41,330 nucleotides of DNA, from positions 1-41,330 of the IMG/VR virus record IMGVR_UViG_3300044986_000457; one strand, given 5' to 3'. The position numbers and the translations under genes were made by a program. Below, one piece after another: positions 31,899-37,763 of this stretch. A model generated the notes under the pieces. It worked only from the letters and a program-made list of their open reading frames with translations. It was not told the DNA's origin and ran no database searches. This stretch comes from a virus. Numbering within the stretch: the stretch's first letter is position 1; each line of letters opens with the position of its first letter.

Positions 31899-31945
31899 CA
31901 CTCACGCGGCACCGTGCCGCCTCACCTCTCACCGGAGACTCTGCC

Positions 31946-32383
31946 ATGTCCACCTACCCCCCCGTTCCGCTCACCCTCTCGCCCGAAGCCGCGCACCGCG
32001 TCCACTTCCTCGCGCTTGAATCCGCCGGACGCGCATCGCTGACCTACGCCAGTCACCTACTGGCCGCCCGCACCGCCGCGTACCGCGACCGCGTAGCCGC
32101 GCTGCCGTGCGGGGAGCAGGATGCGGAAGCGGATCGAACGGAGTGGAAGCGCGCCGATGCCGTCACCGCGTGGGAAATCGCCAACGCCATCGGCCAGTCC
32201 ATCCGCGAGGTCTACACGGACACTTGGAACGTCGAGCGGATGCTATGCGCGGCGGAACAGTGCCGGGATCTATGCGACCTGATTCAACTTTCCGACGATG
32301 AAGCCCTACACGGCGCGTACACCCGCGCCATCAGCGAATGCGCGGATAAGTTGGACGGGATGCGTTCCGCGCTCCGCATCTGA
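31946..32383 (+). CDS. Early protein 1 (145 residues, unknown)
   Basis: First gene of the plus-strand early operon. It is a helical protein with LSPEAAHRVHFLALESAGRA and a Trp/Glu-rich middle (WKRADAVTAWEIANAIGQSI), three Cys and an acidic end. No family is recognised. ATG 31946 follows the exact leader GGAGACTCTGCC. An upstream reading (from 31556) would cross the promoter region and is rejected. Confidence 0.7.
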   Translation: MSTYPPVPLTLSPEAAHRVHFLALESAGRASLTYASHLLAARTAAYRDRVAALPCGEQDAEADRTEWKRADAVTAWEIANAIGQSIREVYTDTWNVERMLCAAEQCRDLCDLIQLSDDEALHGAYTRAISECADKLDGMRSALRI

Positions 32384-32464
32384 CCCGTACCCCGCACCTA
32401 CCCCCCGCGAGGGGGGCTAGTGCGCGGCACTGGCCGCCATTCAACCCCTTACGGAGACTCTGCC
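32384..32464 (+). promoter_or_regulatory. Intergenic leader module 1
   Basis: Contains a CCCCCC-GCGA-GGGGGG hairpin (32401-32416), then GCGGC-ACTG-GCCGC, then CATTCAACCCC and GGAGACTCTGCC directly before the next ATG. The order of C/G hairpin, GCGGCAC hairpin and leader recurs in the next two gaps. Confidence 0.65.
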
Positions 32465-32821
32465 ATGAGCCACTACTACGCCCGCATTCCGACATCCGCC
32501 CGCCGCACCATCGCCACCGCCCGCGGCCATAAGTCTACGGGCATCGCCGCCGAAGTTCTGACCGCCGAAGGCGGGGTGCGCGTGAGCATCCGCAATATCG
32601 ACGGGCGCGATATCGTCACCGTCGAGCGCGTCGGCAACCCCCATACGGGCGGGCGCATCGGTGCCGGGTCCATCGTCGCCCGGTTCGATATGGCTGACCC
32701 CAACGGATACCCCCGCTACGGTGCGGCGGAACCCGCGCCCGCCCCGGCGGTCACCTTCACCCCCTACCCGGTCGCTGCCACTTGCCCCGCCACTGGCGCG
32801 GAGTACGGGACCGCCGAATAA
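32465..32821 (+). CDS. Early protein 2 (118 residues, unknown)
   Basis: Basic N-terminal half (YYARIPTSARRTIATARGHK), a beta-rich middle (GGVRVSIRNIDGRDIVTVER) and a Pro/Ala-rich tail. No family is recognised. It has the exact leader GGAGACTCTGCC in front and lies 81 bases after early gene 1. Confidence 0.65.
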   Translation: MSHYYARIPTSARRTIATARGHKSTGIAAEVLTAEGGVRVSIRNIDGRDIVTVERVGNPHTGGRIGAGSIVARFDMADPNGYPRYGAAEPAPAPAVTFTPYPVAATCPATGAEYGTAE

Positions 32822-32915
32822 CGCGGTACCCCCCGTCGTCCTCCCGGTGCGCTCGCATCGGGGGGCGAACGGGCGGCACCGTGCCACCCATTCAACCCCT
32901 ACCGGAGAATCTGCC
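32822..32915 (+). promoter_or_regulatory. Intergenic leader module 2
   Basis: Contains a CCCCCCG...CGGGGGG inverted repeat, then GGGCGGCACCGTGCCACCC (inner stem GGCAC/GTGCC), then CATTCAACCCCTACC and GGAGAATCTGCC before the next ATG. It shares the same order and most bases with module 1. Confidence 0.65.
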
Positions 32916-33197
32916 ATGCCGAAGCCTACGCCCGAAGTTCTCGCCGCCCGCTACGCCCGTGCCGTTCACAAGTGGCACGATGCCCAACGCGCCATGTTTC
33001 GCGCCGAAAAAGCGATGCGTGACGCGGCAATCGCCGCCGTCCCGCTCCCGCCGGGTTCCGACCGTACCGCGCACTACCGCTATGCCGACTTCATCGAAAG
33101 CGAGTGCCGCAACGGCGGACTCGGCCCGACCTACATGACGCTTTCCGACTTCCTTCCGTCGCTCACCGCGTTCGCGCAGGAATCTTGCGCCGACTAA
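32916..33197 (+). CDS. Early protein 3 (93 residues, unknown)
   Basis: Helical N-terminal half (LAARYARAVHKWHDAQRAMF) and a C-terminal part with YADFIESECRNGGLGP. No family is recognised. Leader variant GGAGAATCTGCC. Confidence 0.65.
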   Translation: MPKPTPEVLAARYARAVHKWHDAQRAMFRAEKAMRDAAIAAVPLPPGSDRTAHYRYADFIESECRNGGLGPTYMTLSDFLPSLTAFAQESCAD

Positions 33198-33287
33198 CCC
33201 GTGCCACCCGCCGCGCTCCCTCCCCGGAGGGGGCCGGACGGGCGGCATTGGCCGACCCTTTCGCACCTACTTATCGGAGATTCTGCC
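33198..33287 (+). promoter_or_regulatory. Intergenic leader module 3
   Basis: Contains CCCTCCCCGGAGGGGG, then GGGCGGCATTGGCCGACCC (stem CGGC/GCCG), then a short spacer and GGAGATTCTGCC. It is the third occurrence of the hairpin-hairpin-leader order. Confidence 0.6.
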
Positions 33288-33896
33288 ATGACTGTTACCG
33301 CTACCGCGACCGTCCGCATCCCGACCGCCATTCACGCCGCCGCCGCGCCGAAGTCCCTGCCCCGTGCACGGTTCTCGCCGGATACCGTGGCGGTGTACGC
33401 CTCGGATGGCGAAGCCATGATCGCCGCGACCGATGGCAAGATGCTCGCCGTCGTGCCGACCGTCGCACCCGGCGCGTCCGGGCGCACCATCCTGCCCGCC
33501 GCCGTCGTGAAGTCCGCCCGCCCGTCCGCCCGCAAGCGCATCGCGGCGGTGATCGACTTGGACGCGAACGCCTTGCCCGATGCGTTCTTCCCACCGATTG
33601 ACGGCGTGATGGCGTTGAGCATGAATCACCGTCGCGCCGTGCACCTGAACGCGGCGATGCTTTCCCGGCTTGCCGATGCGCTCGGCGCGGCGGACGGCAC
33701 CGTTACCCTGCTCATCGACCCCGATTCGGCGCGTCCGATCGTCGTGATGCCGTACGAGGACGGGGAACGGAGCGAGGACGGCGCGGTCGGGTTGCTGATG
33801 CCGATGGTGCACAAGCGGGCCGACAGCGTTCATGCTGCTGCGGCGACCGACCGCCTGAATGCCGCCATCGAACTGGCAAAGCGGGCGACCGCGTGA
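33288..33896 (+). CDS. Sliding-clamp-like (DnaN-like) protein
   Basis: A 202-residue protein. The segments RFSPDTVAVYASDGEAMIAA, TDGKMLAVVPTVAP and LNAAMLSRLADALGAADGTV resemble the repeating fold of DNA polymerase III beta clamp domains as found in short phage relatives. It is shorter than a bacterial clamp (about 370 residues), so it would hold fewer domains per chain. This is a family-level resemblance, not a proven clamp. Leader variant GGAGATTCTGCC. Confidence 0.5.
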   Translation: MTVTATATVRIPTAIHAAAAPKSLPRARFSPDTVAVYASDGEAMIAATDGKMLAVVPTVAPGASGRTILPAAVVKSARPSARKRIAAVIDLDANALPDAFFPPIDGVMALSMNHRRAVHLNAAMLSRLADALGAADGTVTLLIDPDSARPIVVMPYEDGERSEDGAVGLLMPMVHKRADSVHAAAATDRLNAAIELAKRATA

Positions 33897-34044
33897 CCTA
33901 CCCGGCGGGCGCGATGCGACCGCGCCCCGCCGACCCGTACAGAACCCGTACAAAAAAATCTGATTTACCCACTTGACAGAATCGGAATTGGTGATAGAAT
34001 ACACACACCTAGCCGCACTCGCGGCGCAACCCGGAGACTCTGCC
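33897..34044 (+). promoter_or_regulatory. Early promoter 2 region
   Basis: A GC-rich imperfect hairpin (CGGCGGGCGCG against CGCGCCCCGCCG) follows the clamp-like gene. A direct repeat ACCCGTACA and a poly-A run come next. Then TTGACA (33973-33978), a 16-base spacer and TAGAAT (33995-34000) form the best promoter in the window. GCCGC-ACTC-GCGGC and the exact leader precede the next ATG. Confidence 0.7.
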
Positions 34045-34290
34045 ATGAACCGCGACTACCTCACGAACCGCACCAAGTACGAGCGTTTCCGTACCGCCAT
34101 CGTTGTTTCGCGCACATTCACCCACAACGGGGAGAATGACCTGCACCCCGGCGAGATTGTCGGCATCCGTTTCCTGCGGCATCGACTCAACCCAGTCAAC
34201 CGCCGCCCGGAACCGTTGTACGCGGCCACTTCACCGTCCGGCGCGGAGTGTCTTGTGTCGGGTTTCAACCTCCGCGACTTCTGCCTCTGA
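34045..34290 (+). CDS. Early protein 5 (81 residues, unknown)
   Basis: A basic protein beginning MNRDYLTNRTKYERFRTAIV, with a beta-like HPGEIVGIRFLRHRL segment. No family is recognised. It is the first gene after early promoter 2, with the exact leader GGAGACTCTGCC. Confidence 0.65.
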   Translation: MNRDYLTNRTKYERFRTAIVVSRTFTHNGENDLHPGEIVGIRFLRHRLNPVNRRPEPLYAATSPSGAECLVSGFNLRDFCL

Positions 34291-34318
34291 CCCACCACCC
34301 CTAACCGGAGCCTCTGCC

Positions 34319-34549
34319 ATGAACACCCCGACCGTCGTTTCCATGCCCGCCCGCTATCCCGGCACCGCCGTGGACGGCACTCGCGTCAAGCGCGGCGCAC
34401 CCATCGCATGGTGCCGTGCGACCAAGCGCGTACTGTCCGCCGACCCGAAGCGCATCGCCGCGCTCGTCGCTGACGCGGAAGCCGCCGCCGCACCCGATTG
34501 TTTCGACATGATGTACGAGGACGCTTGCGCCGCCCGCTGCGGCTTCTGA
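34319..34549 (+). CDS. Early protein 6 (76 residues, unknown)
   Basis: Contains RVKRGAPIAWCRATKRVLSA and a C-terminal helix ending in DMMYEDACAARCGF. Four Cys are present but no clear zinc pattern. Leader variant GGAGCCTCTGCC. Confidence 0.6.
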   Translation: MNTPTVVSMPARYPGTAVDGTRVKRGAPIAWCRATKRVLSADPKRIAALVADAEAAAAPDCFDMMYEDACAARCGF

Positions 34550-34573
34550 CAATCACCCCCAACGGAGAACGCC

Positions 34574-34897
34574 ATGCCGACCAAGCCCACGCCGCTGCAC
34601 TTGTCGCCCGCTGATATTGATACTGCGATACTCGCGCTGACAACCTACGCCATCCCTGCACTTGAGGAACTGGCCGCTGTCGGAAGGTTGCGCGGCGACG
34701 ATCTTCCGCAATTCCGCACCGCGCTGCGCAACCTCAAGCGGCACCGTGCCGACCGAGCGATCGCGCTGCGCGACTGGAAGCGAGAGCATCCCGAGTGGAC
34801 ACGAACCGAGAACACATGTTCGTGCACCGAATGCGGGTACACGATCCAAGGCGACAATCCGCCCGTCGAATCTGTCTGCGCACTTTGCTACCACTAA
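34574..34897 (+). CDS. Early protein 7 with C-terminal zinc ribbon
   Basis: A 107-residue protein: a helical N-terminal two-thirds and a C-terminal CSCTECG...CALC pattern that fits a four-Cys zinc ribbon. It probably binds nucleic acid or protein. The leader here is the shorter form GGAGAACGCC. Confidence 0.65.
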   Translation: MPTKPTPLHLSPADIDTAILALTTYAIPALEELAAVGRLRGDDLPQFRTALRNLKRHRADRAIALRDWKREHPEWTRTENTCSCTECGYTIQGDNPPVESVCALCYH

Positions 34898-34912
34898 CCA
34901 AAGGAGAACGCC

Positions 34913-35107
34913 ATGAACAAGTGCAACTTTCTCACCTTTGACCAAGCCAATTCTGAAGGAAATGAGGTATGGCTTGATGTTGTTGGAGGATCGTCGATCT
35001 GCATACGGAGAACAGACGATGGAATCCGTGTCGATCTTTTGACGCAGATAGGACATCGAACCGCGACCACTCACGCATCTTGGAACGAACTTCACGACAC
35101 CGAATAA
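34913..35107 (+). CDS. Early protein 8 (64 residues, low GC)
   Basis: A small acidic protein (MNKCNFLTFDQANSEGNEVW, then DVVGGSSICIRRTDDGIRVD). No family is recognised. The first 60 bases after the start are 43% GC, far below neighbours, suggesting recent acquisition. Short leader GGAGAACGCC. Confidence 0.6.
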   Translation: MNKCNFLTFDQANSEGNEVWLDVVGGSSICIRRTDDGIRVDLLTQIGHRTATTHASWNELHDTE

Positions 35108-35128
35108 ACATAACCAAAGGAGAACGCC

Positions 35129-35434
35129 ATGCCGTCACGAATCACCGAGTCCGACCTTTACGCCGCCGTCGCCCGCCTCAATGAGATCATCCACGGGGAA
35201 CCGAAGCCCGCGCACGACGCGCCCGGCGCGTACTTCCTGCAAGGGGCATATGGCGGGTGGCAATTGCAGCGCAACGCCCCGAACGGGCGCGGATGCGAGT
35301 CCGTCACCTCCGGGTATGTGAGCAAGCCCGCGCTGTACGAACTCATCTACGCTTACCGCAAGGGGTACGCGACCGCCATGCACGACCGCCATGTCGAAGT
35401 GTTCGGCGCGGCGACCGCGCCCGCCATCGACTGA
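35129..35434 (+). CDS. Early protein 9 (101 residues, conserved phage type)
   Basis: Begins with ITESDLYAAVARLNEIIHGE and has GAYFLQGAYGGWQLQRN and SGYVSKPALYELIYAYRKGY. The combination of G.Y.L..AYGG..L.R and SK..L is common in small phage proteins of unknown role. Short leader GGAGAACGCC. Confidence 0.65.
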   Translation: MPSRITESDLYAAVARLNEIIHGEPKPAHDAPGAYFLQGAYGGWQLQRNAPNGRGCESVTSGYVSKPALYELIYAYRKGYATAMHDRHVEVFGAATAPAID

Positions 35435-35435
35435 C

Positions 35436-35463
35436 TTGACACCGTTCCGTTTCGTGATACACT
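35436..35463 (+). promoter_or_regulatory. Early promoter 3
   Basis: TTGACA (35436-35441), a 16-base spacer, TACACT (35458-35463). It overlaps the gap after early gene 9. The predicted start near 35470 leaves a leader of only about 16 bases, almost entirely the GGAGACTCTGCC motif. Confidence 0.6.
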
Positions 35464-35485
35464 ACCACCACAAGGAGACTCTGCC

Positions 35486-35854
35486 ATGATGAACACCGAC
35501 CGACTGCTTTCCGTGTTTTCCGAGATCGGGAAGAACGCCGCCGACATGCGCGGGTGCGGGCAACTCGCCCGCGTCACCGCCTACGCCATCCGGGACATGC
35601 TTCCCCCGTCACCCGAACCCGATGCGTCCGCGTTCGTCGCCTACGCGGAGGACTACGCGATGGCCGTCCACTACCACGCCGCGCTCGTCCATGCGGAGGA
35701 CATCGGAAGGTGGTCAATCGGCAACTCCGTCGATCCGAGCCTCGCGGTCGCGGAGGCAAGCCATGCCCGCACCCATGCGTCCGCGCAACTGATCGGTGCA
35801 TGGAAGGCGATCACCGCAACGGAGTGCTGCGGCACGGCGAAGGGAGGCAAGTGA
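35486..35854 (+). CDS. Early protein 10 (122 residues, unknown)
   Basis: A helical, His/Ala-rich protein (RVTAYAIRDMLPPSPEPDAS, then YAMAVHYHAALVHAEDIGRW). No family is recognised. Exact leader AGGAGACTCTGCC, first gene after early promoter 3. The stop overlaps the next start in TGATG. Confidence 0.65.
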   Translation: MMNTDRLLSVFSEIGKNAADMRGCGQLARVTAYAIRDMLPPSPEPDASAFVAYAEDYAMAVHYHAALVHAEDIGRWSIGNSVDPSLAVAEASHARTHASAQLIGAWKAITATECCGTAKGGK

Positions 35855-36069
35855 TGCCGCGCACTGCCCGACCAAAGCCCGAGCCGACCATCGCGTATGA
35901 GTTCATCGTCACCGTTCGATCCTGCCCGCACGATCCGACCGATCCGTTCGACCATCAGTGGTACACCGTGTCAGCGCAGGACGAACTCACTGCCCGCGCC
36001 GTGCTGACCGACATATGGCGTGACCGTTCCGACCTCATCGCCATCACGCTCTGCCCTATCTGCCCGTAA
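35854..36069 (+). CDS. Early protein 11 (71 residues, unknown)
   Basis: Mixed alpha/beta, with EFIVTVRSCPHDPTDPFDHQ and WYTVSAQDELTARAVLTDIW. The second half resembles small phage proteins that handle modified amino-acid patterns, but no family is certain. It starts by TGATG coupling and has AGGGAGGCAAG upstream. Confidence 0.6.
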   Translation: MPRTARPKPEPTIAYEFIVTVRSCPHDPTDPFDHQWYTVSAQDELTARAVLTDIWRDRSDLIAITLCPICP

Positions 36070-36093
36070 CCACCAACCGAAGGAGACTCTGCC

Positions 36094-36486
36094 ATGAAGA
36101 ACACGCTGCTCATCGAACTCAAGACCGACACCGGAATCGAACTCGCCGTGTCCATCCGCAAAGGCGGTGCCATCCGCATCGTGGACGCGAACATCCCCAA
36201 GCGACAGCCGCACCGCGTCCTGATCGACACCGACGAGTACCGGGAAGGCGGCGATCCGCTCGGGGTGCTGACCGTGAAGAACATCGCCCGCTTCTCGTAC
36301 ATCATTGACACCGCAGGGTTGGACGGATCGGTGCAGGACTTGATGATCGAATCCATCCGCGAGTCAGTCGCCGCGCTGCTCCTCAACGAAACGAGTGCCG
36401 CAGCGCATGAGTACGGTCGGGCATTGCACGACTGCATCATCGCGTCCATCAACATCGTCCCACCCGGTTCGACAGTCACCGCCTGA
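36094..36486 (+). CDS. Early protein 12 (130 residues, unknown)
   Basis: A beta-rich first half (NTLLIELKTDTGIELAVSIR) and a helical second half (DGSVQDLMIESIRESVAALL). No family is recognised. Exact leader AGGAGACTCTGCC. Confidence 0.65.
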   Translation: MKNTLLIELKTDTGIELAVSIRKGGAIRIVDANIPKRQPHRVLIDTDEYREGGDPLGVLTVKNIARFSYIIDTAGLDGSVQDLMIESIRESVAALLLNETSAAAHEYGRALHDCIIASINIVPPGSTVTA

Positions 36487-36506
36487 CAAACGAAGGAGAC
36501 AATGCC

Positions 36507-36770
36507 ATGAGGATCAAGCAGACCGACATCAAGTTCCGCGAGGACGCGAGGGATTACCTGTATGCGTCCATGAGCATCGAAGGCACCCCATTCCATGTGG
36601 AGGCGATCAAGGTTCACCCGCTCGGAACGGAGTCGGTGCAGACCGCGACCACCGAGCAGAACGACCAGTTGCTCACCGACAGGCTAGGCAAGGATGGGCC
36701 GTTCCACACAGTCAAGATCGACGAGTGGCCCGGAGACTGGATCGTCGTCATCACTCCGTACCGATACTGA
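36507..36770 (+). CDS. Early protein 13 (87 residues, unknown)
   Basis: A compact alpha/beta protein (RIKQTDIKFREDARDYLYAS, KIDEWPGDWIVVITPYRY). No family is recognised. Leader variant GGAGACAATGCC. Confidence 0.6.
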   Translation: MRIKQTDIKFREDARDYLYASMSIEGTPFHVEAIKVHPLGTESVQTATTEQNDQLLTDRLGKDGPFHTVKIDEWPGDWIVVITPYRY

Positions 36771-36792
36771 TTACACTCAACAGGAGGACACC

Positions 36793-37044
36793 ATGATTCC
36801 AGTTACCAAGACCGTGAGCGAATGGCTCAAGAACAAGAGCATCACGCCGATGATGCTGACCATAAACATCGACTCGGCTTCGTCCGTTGCGCTGCGCCAT
36901 GCGGGGTACGAACTGTTCCGCACCGACCCGGACAACGAGGCGGAGTACGCCCGCGCCGCCGATGCTTACGAGGAAGCGGAGCGCGTGTTCCTTGACATCC
37001 ACGGCGGCACCGAAGTGACCCGTCAGGTGGAGGTGGCGGCATGA
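36793..37044 (+). CDS. Early protein 14 (83 residues, unknown)
   Basis: Acidic, with VSEWLKNKSITPMMLTINID and a helical end (YARAADAYEEAERVFLDIHG). The ribosome site is AGGAGGACACC, without the conserved leader. It overlaps the next gene by 4 bases (ATGA). Confidence 0.6.
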   Translation: MIPVTKTVSEWLKNKSITPMMLTINIDSASSVALRHAGYELFRTDPDNEAEYARAADAYEEAERVFLDIHGGTEVTRQVEVAA

Positions 37045-37385
37045 AGTGCGCGATCATCGCGGCGGCGGCGTTCTGCGGAACGGCAAGCGCGGACTTCCTC
37101 ATCGCTATCCCAAACGGGTTCGTGTGGGACGGCGGGAGCGCGGTGCGGACGGCCAACGGTTGGGTCGGCTCCGGTTGGGAGCGTTTCCCCGGCGTGAACC
37201 CGCCGTGGAACTCCATCGGCGGCGAGGCGGAGCGAGTCGCGGTGCAGACCGTGCTTTCGCAGCCGATCCCGGCAGTCGCCATGCCGTGCGAACCGACGCG
37301 CCGCCCCGCCAGTGCATCCGCCCGCATCAGCGGTTCGATCAGGGTTGCGGGCGAATCCGTGCGGTTCTCCATCGACCCCGTGTAG
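37041..37385 (+). CDS. Secreted early protein 15
   Basis: A 114-residue protein with a clear signal peptide (MKCAIIAAAAFCGTASA, cleavage near Ala17). The mature part has FLIAIPNGFVWDGG and NGWVGSGWERFPGVNPPW. It would be exported to the periplasm. Exclusion, envelope modification or a lysis aid are all possible; no family is recognised. GGAGGTGGCGGC precedes ATG 37041. It is the last gene of the early operon. Confidence 0.65.
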   Translation: MKCAIIAAAAFCGTASADFLIAIPNGFVWDGGSAVRTANGWVGSGWERFPGVNPPWNSIGGEAERVAVQTVLSQPIPAVAMPCEPTRRPASASARISGSIRVAGESVRFSIDPV

Positions 37386-37457
37386 ACTCTCCGGTGACTC
37401 TTGGCAGAGTCTCCTCTTGCACCCCCCGCCCCGGCAGAGGCGGGGGGTGTTTCTTTT
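37386..37457 (+). ncRNA. Candidate sRNA-like 3'UTR with anti-leader seed
   Basis: The 3' end of the early transcript holds GGCAGAGTCTCC (37403-37414), the exact reverse complement of the leader GGAGACTCTGCC found before early genes 1, 2, 5, 10 and 12. It lies partly in a hairpin GACTCT-TGGC-AGAGTC (37396-37411), with a competing AGACTCT at 37384-37390. The intrinsic terminator follows. A seed against ribosome sites plus a T-rich terminator is the layout of many bacterial 3'UTR-derived sRNAs. Function is inferred. Confidence 0.55.
37420..37457 (+). terminator. Intrinsic terminator of the early operon
   Basis: A perfect 11-bp stem CACCCCCCGCC / GGCGGGGGGTG with an 8-base loop, followed by TTTCTTTT. 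It is the strongest terminator in the window and ends the plus-strand early operon. Confidence 0.9.
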
Positions 37458-37480
37458 CCCGCCGTACCCTACCCTCCGGG

Positions 37481-37514
37481 CGCGGCCATGCGGGTTCGAC
37501 TCCCGCTCGGGCAG
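37481..37514 (+). other. tRNA 3'-end-like remnant
   Basis: GCGGG-TTCGACT-CCCGC (37490-37506) is a perfect T-arm with the TTCGANTC loop consensus, followed by TCGGGCA in the acceptor position. No matching 5' acceptor, D-arm or anticodon arm lies upstream, so it is not a full tRNA gene. Such 3' fragments are typical of phage attachment sites, but no integrase gene is visible. Confidence 0.4.
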
Positions 37515-37580
37515 GGGCAGAAGGGTGAGAGCCACGCCCCCCTGCACGGCCACCGATGAGGTAACGGAAACCTGCCGCCG

Positions 37581-37616
37581 GGACAGGCGAACGAGCGAAG
37601 CGCGTTCGTGCTGTCC
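37581..37616. other. Strong hairpin in the operon gap
   Basis: GGACAG pairs with CTGTCC, and the inner CGAACG with CGTTCG, with a small internal bulge and the loop AGCGAAGCG. No T-run follows, so a structured RNA or processing site is more likely than a terminator. The strand is unknown. Confidence 0.45.
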
Positions 37617-37763
37617 ACCGGGGCAAAGGTGCTACACCTGTCCACAAGTGTGGCGGATTCGCTCCACGGAAACGCATACGGACGCACCATTTCGGTTTCA
37701 CGGTGGCTTCCGTTCGCCAAAACGCATACGAATCGGCTAATCAACCGCACTTGAAAGCAACCA

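Follow-up and report, generated by a model that had tools for sequence, protein, structure and literature searches.

A candidate 3′UTR-derived antisense RNA complementary to the shared leader of early genes in a phage operon

The small RNAs OppZ and CarZ of Vibrio cholerae derive from 3′UTRs and repress their own operon (PMC7398697). Antisense regulation by phage-encoded RNA is known from the c4 RNA of P1 and P7 (reviewed in PMC12197685). A leader shared by many phage genes was described in the cluster K mycobacteriophages, in which the 13-bp conserved SAS, including the Shine-Dalgarno sequence, precedes 11–19 non-structural genes; its role is unknown (PMC3203893). The SAS is conserved beyond the needs of ribosome pairing, and one inverted copy was noted in the K1 phages without explanation (PMC3203893). 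The locus described here has a leader repeated before the early genes of a phage and its complement at the end of the same operon.

The window analysed, that is the whole stretch of DNA, is IMG/VR virus record IMGVR_UViG_3300044986_000457, positions 1 to 41,330 (41,330 bases). Small genes of the early type form an operon on its + strand (31946–37385), which ends with an intrinsic terminator, and minus-strand genes face this operon across the terminator. Judging from sequence resemblance, the facing genes include one for a RusA-like resolvase and another for a likely HNH endonuclease. Two strong σ70-like promoters lie inside the operon (33973–34047 and 35436–35488), each just upstream of a gene with the exact leader. 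In the related contig L017, similar TTGACA modules and a GCCGG...CCGGC 5′UTR hairpin before leader genes were seen by eye. The relatives of the last operon gene that were found in bacterial genomes all come from planctomycete MAGs, and planctomycete hosts are therefore suggested for the phage. These MAG relatives (L189–L193) carry neither the leader family nor the element described below.

The leader GGAGACTCTGCC is present on the + strand in exactly five copies, and the ATG of an ORF is directly next to each of them (Table 1). The leader is present on early genes and on almost no structural genes. A different leader, GGAGAACGCC, precedes three genes (34574, 34913 and 35129). In PHROG, the product of gene 4 weakly matched a DNA polymerase processivity factor. 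Two minus-strand genes distant from the early operon (window 762 and 1589) have the leader-like starts GGAGACTGACC and GGAGAACTGCC, unlike the structural genes checked.

According to the original prediction, the operon 3′UTR carries an exact reverse complement of this leader, extending with its flanks to 13 nt for genes 1, 2 and 5 and to 14 nt for genes 10 and 12 and differing by one base from the leaders of genes 3, 4 and 6; it was proposed to lie within a small hairpin, with a strong terminator following at once. We confirmed all of these points. The anti-leader is the sole exact reverse complement found, and it is located between the last stop codon of the operon and the terminator. The leader of gene 4 can pair with the element over its full length through a G-U pair. 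Pairing would also include the A of the ATG; the following U would be mismatched with a U. The fold of the 3′ end was far better than that of shuffled sequences (z = −4.0). No promoter-like site was found directly upstream of the element. A search of 37380–37660 against Rfam produced no match above the gathering score, and the best score (P6, 23.4 bits; gathering score 50) covered the GC-rich terminator only. The element was also considered as the ribosome site of a reverse-strand gene; this was rejected, as all types have CCAAG instead of CCATG and no start codon is adjacent.

Table 1 Positions of the leaders, the anti-leader element and related features (window coordinates unless a contig or phage is named)
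Feature	Position	Strand	Remarks
Leader GGAGACTCTGCC, gene 1	31934..31945	+	ATG 31946
Leader GGAGACTCTGCC, gene 2	32453..32464	+	ATG 32465
Leader variant GGAGAATCTGCC, gene 3	32904..32915	+	
Leader variant GGAGATTCTGCC, gene 4	33276..33287	+	
Leader GGAGACTCTGCC, gene 5	34033..34044	+	ATG 34045
Leader variant GGAGCCTCTGCC, gene 6	34307..34318	+	
Leader GGAGACTCTGCC, gene 10	35474..35485	+	ATG 35486
Leader GGAGACTCTGCC, gene 12	36082..36093	+	ATG 36094
Leader variant GGAGACAATGCC, gene 13	36495..36506	+	ATG 36507; two changes; net pairing −12.9 kcal/mol
Sigma-70-type promoter-like site, TTGACA-16-TAGAAT	33973..34000	+	upstream of gene 5
Sigma-70-type promoter-like site, TTGACA-16-TACACT	35436..35463	+	upstream of gene 10
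Last operon gene, motif FPGVxPPWN	37041..37385	+	element after its stop codon in 7/7 element-bearing contigs
Longer alternative local hairpin (AGACUCUCCGG / UUGG C AGAGUCU)	37385..37412	+	predicted lowest-energy fold in window
5′ arm of short conserved hairpin, TGACTC	37395..37400	+	pairs with 37407–37412; compensatory changes in relatives
Hairpin loop UUGGCA (UUGG = YUNR/U-turn motif)	37401..37406	+	loop GGC complementary to GCC before AUG
Anti-leader GGCAGAGTCTCC	37403..37414	+	exact reverse complement of GGAGACTCTGCC; duplex scans
Intrinsic terminator stem-loop	37419..37450	+	U-rich tail to about 37458
Element sequence, window			...GTGACTCTTGGCAGAGTCTCCTCTTG
Element sequence, L017 and L019			...AGTCTCTTGGCAGAGACTCCCCTTGG
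Element sequence, L039 and L040			...GTGACTCTTGGCAGAGTCTCCAGTTC
Element sequence, L041			...TAGGCCTTGGCAGAGGCTCCAGTAG
Element sequence, L037			...AACGCCTTGGTCGGCGTTCTCCCC
Inverted SAS, Anaya (JF704106)	L217 39871 (about 59870)		
Inverted SAS, Angelica	L218 38635		
Structured RNA members	L017 7350–7522; L037 4391–4560; L047 13241–13422		
Structured RNA members	L019 6368–6539; L041 10774–10938; L075 7683–7868; L078 7680–7869; L039 8430–8621; L040 11438–11627	−	

In a scan of the whole + strand, the 3′UTR proved to be the strongest duplex partner of the leaders in the window (z −5.2 to −6.6); the scan was restricted to one strand because on both strands the leaders match their own reverse complements. 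None of 3000 hairpin-preserving shuffles of the window element reached the observed mean pairing energy, and when the lineages were treated separately, the observed leader pairing was reached by 0, 2, 2, 0 and 0 of 3000 shuffles. The duplex prediction against the leaders, which had been proposed as a check, gave net cofolding energies of about −15 to −19.5 kcal/mol for 7 of the 11 leaders tested, the cost of opening the local hairpin of the element being counted. Two further leaders were near −11 and −13 kcal/mol net. Random operon stretches yielded −3.2 ± 3.4 kcal/mol, and one single stretch reached −16.3 kcal/mol.

Related phages were found by pattern and protein scans of IMG/VR. The element is present at exactly the same place, after the FPGVxPPWN gene and before the terminator, in seven contigs including the window, and occurs in four sequence types. 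An IMG/VR scan for CTTGGCAGAGNCTCC returned 106 stretches; among the matches listed in context, only the family members are situated between the last operon gene and the terminator, and the rest look like chance. In the local hairpin, 4 of the 6 pairs are changed on both sides (covariation 0.44 vs 0.19 for shuffled sequences), and the UUGG loop is invariant in all seven contigs. The element is a stem-loop with a YUNR loop whose bases are complementary to the target, the loop GGC or GGU matching GCC or ACC of the leader.

The covariation of leader and 3′UTR, also named beforehand as a check, was observed in contig L037. Orthologous early-gene proteins of L037 and the window are 91% and 96% identical in the two alignments made, but the early leaders of L037 are different (GGAGAAC(A)CGACC; GGAGAACCGACC, GGAGAACACGACC or near variants), and the leaders were therefore replaced in concert. 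Leader evolution is thus collective and uncoupled from that of the genes (window 31934–36506 vs L037 86–3736). The L037 element is correspondingly replaced and reads GGTCGGCGTTCTCC, in which GGTCG complements CGACC and GTTCTCC complements GGAGAAC. Both loop and arm track the leader, and compensatory changes preserve the local hairpin. The loop changed from GGCA to GGUC alongside the change of the leader from UGCC to GACC, and two of the changed bases lie in the loop, free of the constraint of the local hairpin. With its own leaders, the L037 core element pairs at a mean of −22.4 kcal/mol, whereas the elements of the other phages reach only −10 to −13 kcal/mol with the L037 leaders. The L037 element gave −15.6 to −16.5 kcal/mol with the leaders of the window, L017 and L040 and −20.6 kcal/mol with the single L041 leader.

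In L039, L040 and L041, most leaders start with ACTGGAG, and the elements of these contigs end with CTCCAGT instead of CTCCTCTT. This gain of a flank is a second, independent change outside the hairpin. GGAGCCTCTGCC, which is a leader in L017 and that of window gene 6, is exactly complementary to the L041 element. The L017 and L019 element has one mismatch to the leaders, in the centre of the duplex, which is traded for a better local stem. Many leaders of L039 and L040 have drifted in mid-sequence (GGAGACTGCC, GGAGAACCTGCC), and the core element is unchanged. The pairing of leader and 3′UTR looks selected, since leader and element change together, shuffles match the pairing in only 0–2 of 3000 cases and UUGG is always kept. 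On comparative evidence, which spans the four known element types, the base-pairing hypothesis has passed a test that it could have failed. The interpretation given in the original prediction is thereby supported in part, namely for the pairing.

Further relatives (L074/L076, L075/L078, L047 and L043/L044) have shared leaders of their own and no element after the corresponding gene. Their shared leaders are GGAGACCCTGACC, GGAGACCTGACC and GGAGATACTGAC. When the rest of the operon strand of these relatives was searched for an anti-leader, nothing convincing emerged; the strongest matches were leaders of genes on the other strand. As the shared leader persists in four related lineages that lack the element, the leader is independent of the element and has some reason of its own. 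The element itself was gained or lost in one branch.

Directly 3′ of the terminator, an unrelated structured RNA was noticed (window 37455–37637, + strand). It defines a new family of structured RNAs, about 170 nt in length, with a multi-branched junction. A T-arm-like hairpin (GCGGG-TTCGACT-CCCGC) is present in several members, together with a long 3′ hairpin, and a conserved TAnCCT upstream resembles a −10 box. A model built from five phages recovered the RNA in five held-out contigs (L039, L040, L047, L075 and L078; E 2e-17 to 5e-23). In the alignment of ten sequences, which is model-fitted and favours pairing, 95.9% of cells pair and 32 of the 43 pairs are changed on both sides; in an unfitted alignment of five sequences, both sides are changed in 19 of the 43 pairs. 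Rfam contained no match to this RNA. The identity of the T-arm-like sequence as a tRNA or tmRNA was rejected, as ARAGORN found neither.

Among the described systems, OppZ and CarZ come closest to the locus in function. As in these, an antisense sequence lies in the 3′UTR, after the last stop codon and ahead of the intrinsic terminator of the operon itself, and is complementary to translation starts of the same operon, the complementarity to these ribosome sites being conserved in relatives. In the case of OppZ and CarZ, this arrangement gives negative feedback. The locus differs from them in belonging to a phage of probable planctomycete hosts and in its extensive complementarity. Moreover, about nine leaders share one target sequence here, so that one RNA could hit the whole operon. 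Antisense RNAs with U-turn (YUNR) loops are established. Like the hairpin antisense RNAs of plasmid copy control and toxin-antitoxin systems, the element is a short hairpin with a UUGG loop and exposed bases complementary to the start region of the target. These RNAs lie opposite a single target, whereas the element lies on the same strand as its many targets, at the operon end, 1–5 kb downstream of them. The likeness to c4 RNA consists in a phage RNA which pairs, here by prediction, with phage sequences to block expression; c4, however, has one defined target region and a role in immunity and no repeated-leader regulon.

As a leader phenomenon, the SAS is the closest parallel; the likeness concerns a conserved leader with a Shine-Dalgarno sequence ahead of many phage genes, plus one inverted copy. 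The sequences and the phages are unrelated and this is an analogy only: the 13-bp GGGATAGGAGCCC, which defines the SAS within 3–9 bp of start codons, is not found in the window leaders, which have another sequence and belong to another phage group. In Anaya, Angelica and six further phages (eight of those fetched), a strong intergenic hairpin with compensatory stem changes carries the inverted SAS in its loop. No mapped terminator adjoins the inverted SAS, and the loop is not conserved across all SAS-bearing subclusters; Pixie and ShedlockHolmes, which bear the SAS, have a different hairpin loop. The inverted SAS hairpin may be regarded as a parallel to the anti-leader element, not as a proof.

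We propose, with a probability of roughly 60%, that the element is part of a 3′UTR-derived antisense RNA which exerts collective negative feedback on early-gene translation, similar to OppZ and CarZ and aimed at the repeated leader. Complementarity, position, the conserved local hairpin and the way in which loop, arm and flank follow the leader from relative to relative are features of the sequences themselves; we infer production and stability of the RNA, its action in trans, its repressive effect and the timing. The 3′ end of the transcript (about 37385–37458) would consist of the hairpin with the U-turn loop, a single-stranded CUCC tail and the terminator, and would probably be released as a small RNA or remain as one once the mRNA has decayed. 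Since there is no promoter-like site directly upstream of the element, biogenesis must rely on processing. The loop GGC would first meet the GCC next to the AUG of the early leaders, and pairing would then spread into GAGNCUCC, over the Shine-Dalgarno GGAG, so that the ribosome would be excluded. Each complete operon transcript would add one copy of the RNA, and early translation would therefore fall collectively as transcripts reach the operon end. Several points speak against the antisense reading. One RNA copy per transcript would face about ten leaders, and the complement is predicted to lie largely inside a stable local hairpin. The related lineages that have a shared leader and no element, and the mid-leader drift in L039 and L040 and central mismatch in L017 and L019, also count against it.

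The same sequence evidence would be expected if the 3′UTR paired in cis with leaders on the polycistronic mRNA to which it belongs, so that translation is damped or the two message ends are brought together, with no separate small RNA; a single element per transcript, without a promoter of its own, would suit this as well. We nevertheless regard such an arrangement as unlikely. It is weakened by the fact that one element per molecule covers only one of about ten leaders; in addition, U-turn loops typically serve recognition between two molecules, and the intramolecular route was excluded for OppZ (PMC7398697). The concerted evolution of the leaders, which were replaced on orthologous genes, means that an inverted leader copy, functional only as a hairpin before the terminator, might have followed passively through leader-homogenising recombination or gene conversion. 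A converted copy would, however, be identical to the leader, whereas the element keeps CCAAG vs the CCATG of the leader in all four types and maintains its own local hairpin even where this departs from the leader (L017, L037), together with the UUGG loop; passive conversion is weakened by these features and seems to us quite unlikely. The inverted dead copy suggested as an alternative in the original prediction is unlikely, as hairpin, UUGG loop and pre-terminator position were kept across the four sequence types despite sequence change.

Two further explanations are very improbable. Leader and 3′UTR hairpin might both be sites for one regulator (a protein or a host RNA) in a decoy or sponge arrangement, or the 3′UTR might activate instead of repressing. 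The 5′ arm of the hairpin indeed resembles part of the leader (GACTCT), so that both strands of the motif occur within the hairpin, but the L017 arm is AGTCTC, which is not the sense sequence of the leader, and it is the complement strand that is better conserved. The least probable explanation is that the hairpin merely stabilises the transcript or assists termination. Its position directly before the terminator and the compensatory stem changes agree with such a function, but the match to the leader would then be a coincidence, whereas in each lineage the loop and the unpaired tail fit the leader, which shuffles achieved in 0–2 of 3000 cases, and the L037 element is retargeted.

In a wider and more tentative picture, one anti-leader RNA at the operon end would silence the entire early regulon by acting at the ribosome. 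Leader and anti-leader would coevolve as lock and key, and a phage could exchange the key and all its locks at once; the hairpin with the inverted SAS in the K1 phages could be an independent instance. Common leaders in front of many early genes of a phage were described in 2011 as the SAS of cluster K, without a function. If the antisense reading is true, a co-evolving anti-leader RNA would give a function to such shared phage leaders. It would also be a natural antisense design with one seed for many targets, and would provide the phage with a built-in, RNA-only timer of early genes for which no regulator protein would be needed.
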